Source: Parahalioglobus pacificus
GTDB lineage: Bacteria > Pseudomonadota > Gammaproteobacteria > Pseudomonadales > Halieaceae
Length of the DNA stretch: 64,000 bases
NCBI RefSeq assembly: GCF_014652275.1
Contig: NZ_BMYM01000001.1
Coordinates: forward strand, 124,001-188,000
Direction: 5' to 3'
Below are positions 9,998 through 15,676 of this stretch, piece after piece. The stretch's first letter is position 1, and each line of letters starts with the position of its first letter. The translations under genes and the position numbers were made by a program. The notes beneath the pieces were generated by a model. The model was given only the letters and a program-made list of their open reading frames with translations, made no database searches and was not told where the DNA came from.

Positions 9998-10525
9998 CTA
10001 ACTGAACGTCACTAATGTCATCGCCACGGCATTAAGTACTATGTGTGGGACGAGTGCGGCTAAAAATCCGCCGTACTTTAATCCATTGCGCCATGTGAAG
10101 TAGTTCAACGAGAACAAGTAAAAGCTCGAGAACATAGGCAAGAACCGCAGAGGATCCATCAGTGAATGGAGGGTAGCCGCCAAGGCTGCCATTACAATGC
10201 ACGCTATTTGCACGCTTCGGCCTAGTCTCTCTATTGCTCCGAGGCACGCGGTAAGCAGCAGTGTCTCAATCACTGGCGCAGCAAGGATGTAGCCGGCAAT
10301 ATCAATCAGGCTTAAGGTGACAGCTTCTGTTGGGGCGGCCACGCGATCAGATACGAGTTGCGAAAAGCCGAAGCAAATGAGAGCCAGCAGCGTGGCTATT
10401 GCGGAGATCGCTACACCAAGCCATATTCCCGAGAGCATGCACTGCTGGTAGCTCTGGGCCTTGGGTTTGGCAAAAAACTCAATCAGGGCTAGCATTTGTA
10501 AGTTGGTGGGAAGCAGCCGGGGCAA
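9998..10525 (-). CDS. CPBP-fold membrane protein, possible bacteriocin immunity partner
   Basis: 175 residues with about five hydrophobic segments. Late motifs fit the CPBP (Abi/CAAX-like) intramembrane protease fold: a His at AATLHSLMDP, then F-rich FYLFSLNYFTWRNG, then HIVLN (H-x3-N). The first catalytic motif, normally EE-x3-R, is reduced to IETLLL with no following Arg, so protease activity is doubtful. The start is either TTG at 10525, behind GGGGCGG, or ATG at 10495. It follows the double-glycine-leader peptide gene by 30 bp. CPBP proteins are known immunity partners of some class II bacteriocins, so an immunity or processing role is inferred from context. Confidence 0.6.
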   Translation of the reverse strand: MPRLLPTNLQMLALIEFFAKPKAQSYQQCMLSGIWLGVAISAIATLLALICFGFSQLVSDRVAAPTEAVTLSLIDIAGYILAAPVIETLLLTACLGAIERLGRSVQIACIVMAALAATLHSLMDPLRFLPMFSSFYLFSLNYFTWRNGLKYGGFLAALVPHIVLNAVAMTLVTFS

Positions 10526-10555
10526 TTTCCGCCCCGACTGCGCCTCAACTTCCGT

Positions 10556-10759
10556 TCACGGGCGATGTGGTGCAATGCGCCTCTCCCTATTCATTTGCCC
10601 TCCGGAGCTATATGGTAATCCATCCCCAGCCATTGCGGCTGACGCGATCAGCTTGAAACCATCGTAAACAACGCCTCCCACGATCATTAGTCCTAAAGCC
10701 TGTGCAAGCGGATTGCCCCCACCGACTTGATCGATCTCTGTTTGTGTTAAACATCTCAT
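10556..10759 (-). CDS. Microcin-like peptide with double-glycine leader
   Basis: 67 residues. The first 15, MRCLTQTEIDQVGGG, closely follow the class II microcin (colicin V type) leader pattern MRxLTxxExDxVxGG, which C39-peptidase ABC exporters cut after the glycine pair. The remaining 52-53 residues are rich in Gly, Ala and hydrophobic residues (LGLMIVGGVVYDGF, IASAAMAGDG), lack Cys and end in a basic tail. The ATG at 10759 has GGAG eight bases upstream; the in-frame extension to 10819 has no comparable site. A CPBP-fold gene follows 30 bp downstream. No exporter is encoded in this window, so secretion would need a transporter elsewhere. Activity is inferred. Confidence 0.65.
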   Translation of the reverse strand: MRCLTQTEIDQVGGGNPLAQALGLMIVGGVVYDGFKLIASAAMAGDGLPYSSGGQMNRERRIAPHRP

Positions 10760-10908
10760 AATTGCGACTCCATTCGCGGCGCCACAGTAAACGCCACTCT
10801 CATCCATGATCTCACCCAAGCTCGGCGAGCGCGTAAATGATCCATACCTGTTGCTGGATCAAATCTAAATTACTCAACAACTACTCGTCTCCCTTCTGGA
10901 TGTGCGTC

Positions 10909-11685
10909 TTACAGTGATGTTGCGCGATGGTAGAAACGGCAGTTAAAGGCTTCACCTTTAGTAAACGATTTCAGCTCCACTTGAACTATGGAGCTAGCTA
11001 GGTAATGACTTGAGTATAGGTAAGAATTTTGCTTTTTTGGGTTTCCGCGGGCTGTATCGATGTATCCAGACAGATATTGATGGTACACGTTGCAGTCGCT
11101 ACTCAACCCTGAGGCTATAACTAAGAAAAATAAGTTCTCGAGTGCCCCGGCATCACGTTGAAATGCACTGTAGCGGTCTGCATAGCCTTCCTTGTTATGC
11201 CATGTTTGCAAGTCTTTCCAGTCGATGGTGTTACGTTTGGCCACTTCCAGCGTCAGCTCTCGGCATTGAGCGTCTGCCTCCAAAGACCACCACAGTAGAC
11301 GATCCTTCACACAATCAGTCGGGCTAAGTAGGCGCACGGGGCCTAGCGCAGTCTTAAACTCCCGCGTGCGCTCCGTGGTGATCTGCTCTTTGCAAATCGC
11401 CAATGGTGCAGATGGAAACTCCAGTGACCAACGACAGCCCTCCCTCTCGAAATATCGGCTGGATGCCTTGGCAACGAAACCAATGCTGTTGAGAGCTGAT
11501 GCGATCTTGCTCTTCCTGGCGTAAGTCAGGTCGATGAAGTCGAGGTCCAGCGAGCCGAAACGTTCGTTCGTATAAAGACAAACACAAGACCCGCCGACCA
11601 GAACCACATCAATGCCAGCGTCTAGAAGAGCTTATGCAATCAATGCGGCCAGTTCAGCACGGCTTAGCGCATTGATTTCCGTCAC
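10909..11685 (-). pseudogene. AbiEii-like nucleotidyltransferase, early in-frame stop
   Basis: The frame starts at a GTG overlapping the stop of the wHTH gene and reads VTEINALSRAELAALIA, then TAA (11632-11634), then ALLDAGIDVVLVGGSCVC and on to 10909. The nucleotidyltransferase signature is intact after the stop: GGS followed by LDLDFID (DxD). CAA to TAA is a one-base change, so this looks like a recent nonsense mutation. Restart at GTG 11607 would give a 232-residue protein starting right at the GGS motif, so partial function is possible. Nucleotidyltransferases paired with HTH proteins form toxin-antitoxin systems (AbiE family). That role is inferred. Confidence 0.7.
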
Positions 11686-12011
11686 AAGGGTTTGCCTTTG
11701 CGGCGAGGTCTACGGCGATTGAGGATTAGGGTTTCACGTATTTCCTTTGGGGCGAGGTCTAGCGCTTTGGTGAGTAATGCTATGACTTCAACTTTAAACG
11801 CGTAGCGTTCATTGAAAGCAAAAACCCGAGTACGGCCGACCATGTTGCTAACGAGAAGACCGTCTCTCTCCATGCGCTCGAGGTGCTTCTGCACATTACT
11901 AACATTCATCTGAAATGTTTTTGCAATGTCCAGTGCGTAGCCCTCACCTCTGGCCACCAAAAACAACAGCACCCTTTCGGCTCCCTCTGAACCAACTACT
12001 GCTTCGAGCAC
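11682..12011 (-). CDS. Winged-HTH regulator, antitoxin-like
   Basis: 109 residues. A winged helix-turn-helix spans about 8-70 (LDIAKTFQMNVSNVQKHLER then the wing LLVSNMVGRTRVFAFNERY), followed by a basic C-terminus NRRRPRRKGK. Its stop overlaps the GTG of the nucleotidyltransferase gene, a coupled arrangement typical of HTH-nucleotidyltransferase toxin-antitoxin pairs. Two direct repeats just upstream (12037-12071) may be its autoregulatory sites. Confidence 0.65.
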   Translation of the reverse strand: MLEAVVGSEGAERVLLFLVARGEGYALDIAKTFQMNVSNVQKHLERMERDGLLVSNMVGRTRVFAFNERYAFKVEVIALLTKALDLAPKEIRETLILNRRRPRRKGKPL

Positions 12012-12163: not shown

Positions 12164-12541
12164 CTACTCGAAGATAAAGGCGTTGAGTTTGTTGCCTTCG
12201 GGGTCGCGGAAGTATGCCGCATAGAAACCCTCTATGCGCAGTCCCGGGCCGCCTTCGCAGGTTGCGCCCAGCTCGATAGCTTTGGCATAGAAGGCATCGA
12301 CCTGCTCTCGTGACTCCATATTCATAGCCGCCATTACGCCATTACCCACGGTGGCGGGCTCGCCGTTGAACGGCGGGGTGATCGCGAGTGCTGGCTCTTC
12401 CAGTGAGATGCCCCAGGCGATAAAACCGTTTTCGTCTTGAAAGATGCGGGTATGCCCCAGTGTGCCCAGCAGCTCATCATAGAAAGCTGCCGCCTTTTCC
12501 AGCTCATTGGTGCCCAGCGTAACGTATCCCAGTCGTGCCAT
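12164..12541 (-). CDS. VOC family protein (glyoxalase/bleomycin-resistance fold)
   Basis: 125 residues with the paired beta-alpha-beta-beta-beta modules of the vicinal oxygen chelate superfamily: MARLGYVTLGTNELEKAAAFYDELL opens module one, and the end has the standard YFRDPEGNKLNAFIFE with its metal-ligand Glu region. Typical members are metalloenzymes or small-molecule binders; the substrate cannot be told from sequence. No operon partner: its upstream side faces the arsR promoter and its downstream neighbour begins its own transcription. Confidence 0.85.
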   Translation of the reverse strand: MARLGYVTLGTNELEKAAAFYDELLGTLGHTRIFQDENGFIAWGISLEEPALAITPPFNGEPATVGNGVMAAMNMESREQVDAFYAKAIELGATCEGGPGLRIEGFYAAYFRDPEGNKLNAFIFE

Positions 12542-12707: not shown

Positions 12708-12736
12708 TTGACATAGTTGCACAACTATGCAAATAT
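12708..12736 (+). promoter_or_regulatory. Promoter with perfect ArsR-type palindrome
   Basis: CATAGTTG-CA-CAACTATG (12712-12729) is a perfect 8-2-8 inverted repeat. It overlaps a consensus -35 TTGACA (12708-12713) and fills the spacer before an AT-rich -10 candidate at 12731-12736. ArsR/SmtB repressors bind such elements to block polymerase. If these boxes are used, transcription would begin near 12743 and the mRNA for the ATG at 12745 would be nearly leaderless. Confidence 0.75.
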
Positions 12737-12744
12737 TGCCGCCC

Positions 12745-13062
12745 ATGGCAACGACAACTCAAGAACTGGCGGATCTGCTCAAGGCGTTAGGAGAGTTCAA
12801 CCGGCTCTCCTTGGTTTACGAGCTGTGCGAGTGCAAGGCGCCCCGCAATGCCATGTGTCTGTGCTCCTGCTGCAGCGTGGATGCCTCCGTGGCATCGCGT
12901 CATCTGCGAGTACTGGCTCAGGAGGGTGTTGTTGAAATGGAGAAGCAGGGTCGTGAGCGTATCTACTCGCTTAACCGCGAGGAAGTAGCTCACAAACTAA
13001 GGGCACTGGCCGATCGCATCGAGGGTGCCGGTACCGAATTGTCGAAGGAGACAGAGCTATGA
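12745..13062 (+). CDS. ArsR/SmtB-family metal(loid)-sensing repressor, Cys-rich
   Basis: 105 residues with an ArsR winged helix: ALGEFNRLSLVYEL, recognition region SVDASVASRHLRVLAQEGVV and wing VEMEKQGRERIYSLN. Six cysteines lie between the second and third helices (28, 30, 38, 40, 42, 43), in and next to the part of the fold where CadC/ArsR sensors bind thiophilic metals or arsenite. The ATG at 12745 is preferred because the alternative at 12727 lies inside the palindromic operator. The stop overlaps the ATG of a metallothionein-like gene, so the regulator and a metal-binding peptide are made from one transcript. This echoes cyanobacterial smtB/smtA. The metal sensed is unknown. Confidence 0.88.
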   Translation: MATTTQELADLLKALGEFNRLSLVYELCECKAPRNAMCLCSCCSVDASVASRHLRVLAQEGVVEMEKQGRERIYSLNREEVAHKLRALADRIEGAGTELSKETEL

Positions 13063-13148
13063 GCGACAAATGTGAGTGTGTATGCAGCGGTGGTAGCTGT
13101 TGCAAAGAGAAGTCTTGTGAATGCTGCAGCCAGAGCTGTTGCTGCTAG
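13059..13148 (+). CDS. 29-residue metallothionein-like peptide
   Basis: A short ORF overlapping the arsR stop by four bases (ATGA), with AAGGAG nine bases upstream. Eleven of 29 residues are Cys (5, 7, 9, 14, 15, 20, 22, 23, 27, 28, 29), arranged as CECVC, CC, CECC and a terminal CCC. The other residues are Ser, Gly, Lys, Glu and Gln. There is no His and no aromatic residue, as in metallothioneins. A strong terminator follows six bases after the stop, closing a two-gene operon. Likely role: buffering of the thiophilic ion that the ArsR protein senses. It is shorter than classical bacterial metallothioneins (about 50-60 residues). Confidence 0.8.
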   Translation: MSDKCECVCSGGSCCKEKSCECCSQSCCC

Positions 13149-13154
13149 GAAACG

Positions 13155-13184
13155 AAAAAGCCCGCTGAGAAGCGGGCTTTTTTT
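13155..13184 (+). terminator. Rho-independent terminator of arsR operon
   Basis: AAAAAGCCCGCT-GAGA-AGCGGGCTTTTTTTT: a long perfect stem, tetraloop and T-tract immediately after the metallothionein-like gene. Confidence 0.95.
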
Positions 13185-13290
13185 GTGGCGTGAGTAACGA
13201 TGATCTCCATAGACGTTCTCACAAGGTATCAGCCTATGGTTACCCAGCCCGCATGAGTCTCGAAACGTTAACTGTGTGCGCCCAGATGCG

Positions 13291-15558
13291 TTAAAACTCG
13301 TACGTTGCGCCTACACCCAAGGTGCGAGGGTTCGAGCGAAACGTGTTGTACCCGATAAAGCCGAAACCGGAAACAGCATAATCTTCGTCCAAAAGATTAC
13401 GGCCAAATACGGATAGCTCTAGCCCATTCAGGGGCGTTCGCAGTGTCGCTTCTGCTGACACGGTGGTGTATCCGCTCTGTTCCCGCTCTTCGAGACCCTC
13501 CGCATCCAGATAGAAGTCACTGCGGTATTTTGCGCTCATCCTCAGATTGCCAGCGTAGCCAGTGGCAACTTGCCAGGCGTAGTCTGCTGAAAGTGTTGCC
13601 GATACATCAGACGCGAAGGGGAGCGAGTTCCCGTCAAACAGCGCTGCGTTGCCCGCGAGGTCGCTGCTCTGATCGATCTCCGTGTCCAGAAGTGTGATTC
13701 CACCATTGAAGCGCAACTGTTCAGTGGCCTGCCACTGCACGGTGCTTTCCAGCCCATAGCTGTAGGCGGTATCCAGGTTGGATAGCGAGTTGGAGACAAT
13801 GTTGGAGCCATCGGGCAATTCGAAATCTACGAATATCCTCGCCTGCGGTGCATCGTAGTATTGGTAGAACAGTGCGGCGGTCCAATTAAAACCGCCCACG
13901 TCAACGGACTTGAAGCCCAGCTCCAGGGCGGTAACGGTTTCTGTATCGAATAGACCCTCATCGGAATAGTGCAGCGCATTGTTGGCAACTTCGCCATTGA
14001 AACCACCCGACTTAAAGCTCTGGGCCAATGATGCGTAGGCCATGCCGGCATTGGTTGCGTATTGCAGGGCCAGGTCGCCGCTGAAGCGCAGGTCATTGAT
14101 GCTATTCGATCCGATGGCCGGTCCCACATCACCGCGGTTGTTAAAGGCAACCACACCGTCCTCAAAAATATGCCGACCGTTGCCTTCACCTTCGATGCGC
14201 TCGTAGGCAAGCCGGGCCCCCAGTGTTAACTCCCACTGGCTGTTTAGCTCCACCGTATTACGAGAGAAAATGGCGGCTGTTTCGCGGGTTTGATCGATGT
14301 CTGTAATCAGCGTGCTGGCAGCGGTATCCGAAGCGGGGTTTGATCCGGTGCGCCCCGGCGCACCCACATAGGGGCAGGTTCCCAAGAGCGTGTCAGGGTC
14401 CTGTTTGCCACACCAGATGGTGTAGGTCTGCTCGAAATCGTCGTAGCTGAGTGCCAACCCAACGAGTGCTCTGCCCCAGTCATAGGTGTTCTGTGCCCGG
14501 AACTCCTGGCTGAACTGCAGGTAGTCACGATCGTAGGAGAGATTGGCGTTCAGCGTGGGATCGTCGAAGGGTGCCGGCGTGCCGTCGAAATCAAAGCCGT
14601 ATTGCTGGTTGTAGCCCTCGACGGCCGTGATCGACGTCAGCTGCCAGGCGTTCCAGCTGCCCTCCCATTCTGCTGCCAGGCCGAAGAACTCGTTATCGGT
14701 TGTTTGTTGACCATCACCTGCCACAGATAGCTCGAAGTCCTTCAGCGCTAAGCTGCTGTTGCGTGGACTGGTGTTGATGCCGTTATCTTCTTCGTAGTGC
14801 GCGCGAAGCAGCAGTGTGCTGTTTTTGAACTCAGCGCCGATTGCCGCTCTTAATCCGAACTCATCCAGTTCGCCGGCGGACTCGGACGGGGCGGTTGGAA
14901 ACAGTTCGCTGCTCACGACGTTATCTAGCGCAGCATCTTGTTGTAGGCTGCGGGCGGCAATCCGGTAGTGAGTAGCTTCGCCCGCTGCGCCGCCGATGGC
15001 CGCACGCAGATCGAATCGGCCGTCCTTGGCGGCACTGGCATAGAGGTAGTTCTGCTGATCCGGGCCAGGGCGAGCACTCATGAAGTTAATTGCACCGGAG
15101 GATGCGTTTCTGCCGTACAGAGTCCCCTGTGGCCCCTTCAGTACTTCGACGCGATCCAGATCGTAGAGTAGGGCGCTGGTTTGTACGTTGGTGGCGAGGA
15201 AAACGCCGTCCGAATAGACGGCGGCTGATCCTGGCGTCAGCGCCTGGTGGTCAACGGCGCCTATGCCGCGAATTTGGAAAACCACTTGCGTGCCGTTGGC
15301 GACGGCTGTCTGAACACCGTTTAAGTATTCCGTAATGTCTTCGGCACCGTTAAGCGCAGCGCTGGCGGCAATTTCATCGAAAGCCAGTACCTGCAGCGAC
15401 AAGGGAATCTCTGCTGCTGGTTGCTCCCGGTGGTTTGCGGTGACGACCACCTCTTCCATGGTTTGGGCAGTGGCGATGTTCGCTGCGCCGCCGGCAGTGG
15501 CTAGCAGGCACAGAGTGGCTGTCGAGAGGTGTCGACGTCGAGATAATGGGGATTTCAT
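13291..15558 (-). CDS. TonB-dependent receptor
   Basis: About 755 residues. A signal peptide is followed by the TonB-box-like MEEVVVTANHREQPAAEIPLSL. The plug carries VVFQIRGIGAVDHQ, VYSDGVFLA, VEVLKGPQGTLYGRNASSGAINFMSARP. The barrel ends in GVGATYEF with a terminal Phe. This plug style (GPQGTLYGRNASSGAIN) belongs to the broad receptor group common in marine proteobacteria, often for carbohydrates, lipids or aromatic compounds rather than siderophores. The start at 15558 (MKSPLSRRR) gives a normal signal peptide; 15588 is the alternative. The outer membrane barrel gene upstream is on the same strand, 118 bp away. Substrate unknown. Confidence 0.9.
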   Translation of the reverse strand: MKSPLSRRRHLSTATLCLLATAGGAANIATAQTMEEVVVTANHREQPAAEIPLSLQVLAFDEIAASAALNGAEDITEYLNGVQTAVANGTQVVFQIRGIGAVDHQALTPGSAAVYSDGVFLATNVQTSALLYDLDRVEVLKGPQGTLYGRNASSGAINFMSARPGPDQQNYLYASAAKDGRFDLRAAIGGAAGEATHYRIAARSLQQDAALDNVVSSELFPTAPSESAGELDEFGLRAAIGAEFKNSTLLLRAHYEEDNGINTSPRNSSLALKDFELSVAGDGQQTTDNEFFGLAAEWEGSWNAWQLTSITAVEGYNQQYGFDFDGTPAPFDDPTLNANLSYDRDYLQFSQEFRAQNTYDWGRALVGLALSYDDFEQTYTIWCGKQDPDTLLGTCPYVGAPGRTGSNPASDTAASTLITDIDQTRETAAIFSRNTVELNSQWELTLGARLAYERIEGEGNGRHIFEDGVVAFNNRGDVGPAIGSNSINDLRFSGDLALQYATNAGMAYASLAQSFKSGGFNGEVANNALHYSDEGLFDTETVTALELGFKSVDVGGFNWTAALFYQYYDAPQARIFVDFELPDGSNIVSNSLSNLDTAYSYGLESTVQWQATEQLRFNGGITLLDTEIDQSSDLAGNAALFDGNSLPFASDVSATLSADYAWQVATGYAGNLRMSAKYRSDFYLDAEGLEEREQSGYTTVSAEATLRTPLNGLELSVFGRNLLDEDYAVSGFGFIGYNTFRSNPRTLGVGATYEF

Positions 15559-15676
15559 GTTGAGGTGTACTTCTCTTGCGGAGGGCAACGCGCGTTGCCG
15601 TTGTTAACTCATAAATTAGGTAAAGGTTAACATAAGTTGCGGCGTTAGGGGCGTCTCCTCACACAAAATCGAGGCT

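Follow-up and report, generated by a model that had tools for sequence, protein, structure and literature searches.

An open reading frame of 29 codons before its stop, eleven of them for cysteine, lies directly behind a gene for an ArsR-type repressor in Parahalioglobus pacificus. The questions raised by this locus are whether such a short frame is a gene and, if so, what it does together with its repressor. The window analysed is a stretch of 64,000 nucleotides (contig NZ_BMYM01000001.1, positions 124,001 to 188,000), for which a preliminary description made from the sequence had proposed a metal sensor with its own metal sink.

Organization of the operon and its promoter

On the plus strand, the operon runs from promoter to arsR, peptide ORF and terminator, with the Shine-Dalgarno sequence AAGGAG of the peptide located inside the end of arsR. 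With its length of less than 500 bp, the entire cassette can be tested directly and could serve as a compact metal sensor. Its predicted features and flanking genes are the following:

12164-12541, minus strand: glyoxalase-like gene flanking the operon (Pfam PF00903)
12708-12736, plus strand: promoter, TTGACA-17-AAATAT, read from the sequence (the scan gave TTGACA with AATATT at 18 nt)
12712-12729: exact 8-2-8 palindrome CATAGTTGCACAACTATG within the operator region, read from the sequence
12713-12736, no strand: putative operator, a 24-bp imperfect inverted repeat covering the promoter spacer and the -10 element
12745-13062, plus strand: ArsR/SmtB-family repressor gene, 105 aa, from ATG 12745 to TGA 13062 (NF033788)
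13045-13050, plus strand: Shine-Dalgarno sequence AAGGAG of the peptide gene, from the sequence
13059-13148, plus strand: metallothionein-like peptide MSDKCECVCSGGSCCKEKSCECCSQSCCC, 29 aa, from the sequence and its retention downstream of ArsR in 9/9 cassettes
13155-13185, plus strand: intrinsic terminator AAAAAGCCCGCT-GAGA-AGCGGGCTTTTT followed by a T-run, from hairpin folding (z -4.5)
13291-15588, minus strand: TonB-receptor-like ORF flanking the operon on the other side, named by eye

The earlier reading of a 29-residue ORF with 11 Cys, preceded by AAGGAG and overlapping the ArsR stop, was confirmed by the sequence (13059-13148), where the peptide ATG and the ArsR TGA share the ATGA at 13059-13062. 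The strong terminator that had been assigned to the end of this ORF also held, the hairpin folding with -25.9 kcal/mol and a z of -4.5. The 13155-13185 hairpin escaped the pattern scan for terminators, apparently through pairing of its A-tract with the T-run.

The locus was compared with its close relatives, giving nine ArsR cassettes with that of the window included. The same -35/17/-10 layout with a 17-bp spacer is common to all nine (eight by script; for G101 the register of G094 was used), and in each of them an arsR start codon lies 5-8 nt after the -10 element, with a further candidate start at 0 nt in G503. Given this distance, the arsR messenger is probably leaderless. ATG 12727, the listed ArsR start, falls inside the promoter spacer and was rejected; the relatives agree with ATG 12745, where the protein very probably starts. 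The peptide of the window is preceded by a good Shine-Dalgarno sequence, while those of some relatives are poorer (e.g., G066).

An operator element close to ATATTTGCrCAnnTrTGCAAATAT was found in 9/9 cassettes, with 7-11 of 12 pairs symmetrical in the eight correctly registered rows. A perfect 8-2-8 palindrome had been noted in the promoter; it is exact at 12712-12729, but in that form and register it belongs to this genome only among the nine. When the operator consensus was searched with up to 3 mismatches, a single match was obtained in the genome of 3,418,305 bases, and none with the reversed control pattern. Since the operator occurs once, the repressor probably serves only its own operon, and the circuit looks dedicated.

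The eleven-cysteine peptide

A Cys-rich frame behind a regulatory gene could arise by chance and, as would be expected of such a frame, neither Pfam or NCBIfam models nor PDB sequences match the peptide. Chance frequency and conservation were therefore both considered. The window has 737 ORFs of 20-60 aa, and of these the 29-aa peptide alone contains at least 30% Cys; in 60 copies of the window generated by a first-order Markov model, none of 62,059 ORFs of this size reached 30%. An 11-Cys ORF follows ArsR in all nine cassettes. The preliminary description had named stops or frameshifts in this ORF beside a retained arsR as the observation that would speak against a gene; these were looked for and none was seen. 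A tenth peptide comes from G067, whose contig starts within the peptide gene, so that the N-terminus is absent.

In the eight peptides that align without gaps, the 11 Cys columns comprise 88 codons, each of them TGC or TGT, and both codons appear at every column. The columns between them vary freely, indicating that the peptide is constrained as a Cys scaffold only. Pairwise codon differences amount to 56% at third positions, 30% at first and 28% at second. dN/dS is of limited use here: dN is 0.2-0.6 in most pairs, and dS was obtained in only 9 of 28 pairs, in all of which dN < dS, with one dS of 26.7 reflecting saturation. For the only close pair, G094/G101, dN is 0.016 and dS 0.294. Taking the 9/9 conservation, the Cys codon pattern and the Markov estimate together, chance origin of the frame is refuted by the comparative data with hardly any doubt left, and the 29-residue ORF is, as judged from these sequences, a real gene.

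The number of Cys is 11 in 10/10 peptides even where their spacing shifts, and lengths are 29-32 aa. In the G096 peptide, the central CC pair is reduced to a single Cys and there is one CxC unit more, the total still being 11, and the Woeseiaceae peptide retains 11 Cys with an insertion in the first motif. Neither His nor aromatic residues are present in any of the ten (that of G067 without its N-terminus). The peptides show the sequence features of functionally defined metallothioneins, being small and Cys-rich with conserved CxC/CC motifs.

No NCBIfam model matched the peptide, and the only Pfam match was a meaningless one to LSR (E 8.1). The Pfam model of the prokaryotic metallothioneins SmtA/BmtA/PmtA (PF02069) gave no match at E up to 10, a result to be read with the caution that HMMER filters may hide weak composition-biased matches. 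Nothing in the PDB sequences was matched by the peptide profile up to E 1. In titles and abstracts of the open PMC library, no paper was found describing such a peptide or an arsR followed by one. As far as the models tested go, the peptide could be placed in no known metallothionein family and can be called metallothionein-like.

The repressor and the proposed circuit

The NCBIfam ArsR/SmtB family model NF033788 matched the repressor with 57.2 bits, above its cut-off of 55, and Pfam HTH_5 with 16.6 bits, below its cut-off of 22. Counting from ATG 12745, C28, C30, C38, C40, C42 and C43 are invariant in 9/9 ArsR. By BLASTP against E. coli K-12 ArsR, C38, C40 and C43 align with C32, C34 and C37, giving a CxCxxC triad, while MAFFT places C42, not C43, on C37. 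C32/C34/C37 is the arsenite triad as set out for R773 ArsR in PMC4287715. Alignment with CadC places C38 and C40 on C58 and C60. No Cys precedes C28 in the nine proteins (seven aligned, plus G066 and G503), so that a counterpart of the N-terminal C7/C11 pair of CadC was not found, nor was a conserved His found in the last helix that could correspond to the alpha5 ligands of SmtB/CzrA, the CzrA alignment included.

The best PDB sequence match of ArsR was Lmo1102, with CadC close behind. The AlphaFold2 model has a middling mean pLDDT of 69.7, falling to 52-62 in the blocks of the Cys loop, and shows an ArsR-like layout in which the Cys-rich loop, residues 28-46, is not helical. For this model, no PDB match of Foldseek reached E ≤ 0.001; the best, at 0.014, was an SmtB, and the best matches were ArsR-family proteins. 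From the alignments and the model, the sensor is read as a putative multi-thiolate site of the alpha3N region.

SqrR, BigR and RexT were among the structural matches, and the NCBIfam BigR model matched ArsR weakly, at 28.3 bits, far below its cut-off of 155. These matches would suit an operon answering reactive sulfur or oxidants, with ArsR sensing through its Cys as in SqrR/BigR or RexT and the peptide acting as a thiol buffer. This reading is considered unlikely: the CxCxxC/CxC arrangement of the sensor fits the sites at which E. coli ArsR and CadC bind metals and metalloids, the constant 11 Cys without His suggest metal clusters, and no sulfur or redox gene was recognized by eye beside the nine cassettes.

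The operon is, with good probability, a self-contained response to a thiophilic metal or metalloid, with ArsR as sensor and the peptide as sink. Without metal, an ArsR dimer would sit on the operator in the -35/-10 spacer and shut the promoter, as expected from the family and the layout. A thiophilic metal(loid) would then bind to C28, C30, C38, C40, C42 and C43 in the Cys-rich loop that joins helix 2 to the recognition helix, and the DNA would be released. A single transcript, stopping at the terminator, would yield ArsR from its probably leaderless start and the peptide from its good Shine-Dalgarno sequence. The peptide probably soaks up the toxic metal, enclosing it in a thiolate cluster, for which 11 Cys would be enough to form one M(II)4Cys11 cluster per peptide; ArsR would return to the apo form and the circuit would switch off.

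The spacing of the two genes bears on a different role, in which the peptide would carry the metal or compete with the sensor, setting its threshold or passing the metal to a distant exporter, and would not be a bulk sink. The ATGA of the window, a 4-nt overlap, and the 11-nt overlap in G094 and G101 would fix the product ratio by co-translation, and the unique operator implies that no exporter belongs to the same regulon by sequence. However, the spacing is not conserved, ranging from the 11-nt overlap to genes 56 nt apart: in the other cassettes the gaps are 23, 26, 27, 37 and 56 nt, and 43 nt in G096 (the latter derived from locus coordinates, the other spacings from a regular-expression scan). 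Moreover, a leaderless repressor next to a Shine-Dalgarno-led peptide suggests unequal amounts. A carrier or competitor is considered very unlikely.

No conserved neighbor pointing to the metal was found in the nine loci. As a guess, the inducer would be Cd(II)/Zn(II)-like or, about equally, As(III)/Sb(III), with Cu(I)/Ag(I) next. The cassette of G014 has as its divergent neighbor a gene for an aquaporin (L021, 6535-7224, minus strand; Pfam MIP, E 1.7e-50). Aquaporins are present in some arsenic operons, and the gene is a weak hint of arsenic.

Known systems, distribution and possible mobility

As in smtB/smtA of Synechococcus, sensor and sink lie in one locus, with an ArsR/SmtB-family repressor dedicated to one Cys-rich product. 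Judged by its layout, the cassette would work like SmtB/SmtA, and its repressor is by sequence a member of the ArsR/SmtB family. The smtB/smtA-like circuit of the preliminary description stands with regard to the single operon, the ArsR/SmtB repressor, its own operator and the terminator, but features specific to SmtA and SmtB are missing and the gene orientation is different. SmtA has about 56 aa. The SmtB of Synechococcus 7002 has a single target according to PMC4628125, and smtB/smtA is divergent in the accounts of PMC8790569 and PMC7387436, whereas the present pair is co-directional. SmtA-type proteins, as outlined in PMC10612145, use His ligands within a zinc-finger-like fold, in contrast to a peptide without His, aromatic residues or a match to the Pfam metallothionein. 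SmtB uses the alpha5 site, which is absent from the present sensor with its six invariant Cys.

The Pseudomonas metallothioneins and the mycobacterial MymT are likewise small Cys-rich proteins. MymT is a copper metallothionein, longer than the present peptide. The Pseudomonas operons have no metal-responsive regulator in the description given by PMC7387436. Equal in Cys number to the peptide is the alpha-domain of mammalian metallothionein, although it is half of a two-domain protein and no homology is claimed. It has about 30 residues, with a Cys spacing unlike that of the present peptide. Its 11 Cys form Zn4Cys11, as stated in PMC10243857. With E. coli ArsR and Staphylococcus CadC, the repressor shares the fold family and the counterparts of the triad and of C58/C60, but it has three extra invariant Cys (C28, C30 and C42) and a shorter stretch from the Cys cluster to the recognition helix, lacks the N-terminal Cys pair of CadC, and is not accompanied by an efflux gene in its operon. 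In Oscillatoria, the ArsR-family repressor BxmR is linked with BmtA, a metallothionein of the cyanobacterial type. BxmR is also named in PMC8790569.

Relatives of the ArsR were found in 6/140 genomes of the family (own included), in 2/369 of the class sample (own and G503), with 1/57 in the family of G503, and in two MAGs, from Woeseiaceae and Planctomycetota. The latter came from a contig pattern scan whose patterns, taken from the window protein alone, reach close relatives only. No further ArsR of the cassette subtype appeared in the order and phylum samples; the genome samples are partial and overlapping, and in the class, order and phylum searches 12-13 of up to 34 first-look candidates were scored in some genomes, which leaves absence unproven. 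The peptide profile was found in 7/140 family and 2/369 class genomes, at the same loci as ArsR plus G067. Within the genome samples, which amounted to 1,866 genome searches in addition to one pattern scan, no peptide occurred without ArsR, except at the contig edge of G067, and no ArsR of the subtype without peptide. Viral contigs contained no relative of ArsR or of the peptide profile, and plasmids no ArsR relative at E 1e-5. No Cys-rich ORF was present in 4,001 bases at E. coli K-12 arsR.

The order search also gave an ArsR in G615 with 60.7 bits, which was rejected as another subtype, since the MCLC motif is missing from it and its 3,255-base locus contains no Cys-rich ORF; it was left out of the nine cassettes. 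In L019 of G615, a different ArsR, with the motif CCGIDFSGVSRHL, is followed by an ORF resembling by eye a glyoxalase-type ArsI/CadI, and a second ATATATGCGCAAATAT-like site lies in the intergenic region.

Identity to the ArsR of the window is 84% for the Woeseiaceae MAG, 80% for the Planctomycetota MAG (L009, host assignment as binned) and 60-78% for genomes of the same family, while the ArsR of G066 and that of G094, two genomes of one genus, are 56% identical to each other. Predicted neighbors differ among the nine loci by eye, except for G094 and G101, of one genus, which share an upstream 185-aa ORF. Since ArsR similarity does not follow kinship and the neighbors differ, these data suggest a cassette mobile between bacterial lineages. 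The ArsR tree is poorly supported, with 2/6 inner branches passing, so transfer rests on the identities, the shifting neighbors and the spread of hosts.

Somewhat short of an even chance, in our estimate, is the broader proposal that these peptides represent a new family of stand-alone M4Cys11 metallothioneins of about 30 residues, with exactly 11 Cys in drifting spacing, carried between bacterial lineages in a mobile cassette whose other gene encodes a leaderless repressor with a new six-Cys type of sensor site. Few bacterial metallothioneins are known, and they are about twice the length of the present peptide. A conserved peptide of 29-32 residues with 11 Cys and its own repressor would broaden the definition of bacterial metallothioneins and would rank among the smallest genetically encoded metal sinks. 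Short length is suggested as the reason why such genes escape notice.

Further small genes were observed on the minus strand of the window. A winged-helix protein of 109 aa at 11682-12011 (Pfam HTH_5, E 5.5e-5) comes before a 232-aa protein (10909-11607) that has no Pfam match and is nucleotidyltransferase-like by eye; the pair at 10909-12011 presumably resembles two-gene abortive-infection or toxin-antitoxin pairs. At 9998-10819, a membrane protein resembling Rce1/CAAX proteases (Pfam E 0.0083, below cut-off) is preceded by a small ORF whose start, MRCLTQTEIDQVGGG (ATG at about 10759), resembles a double-glycine leader, and the two are possibly a bacteriocin-like peptide and its immunity or processing protein.
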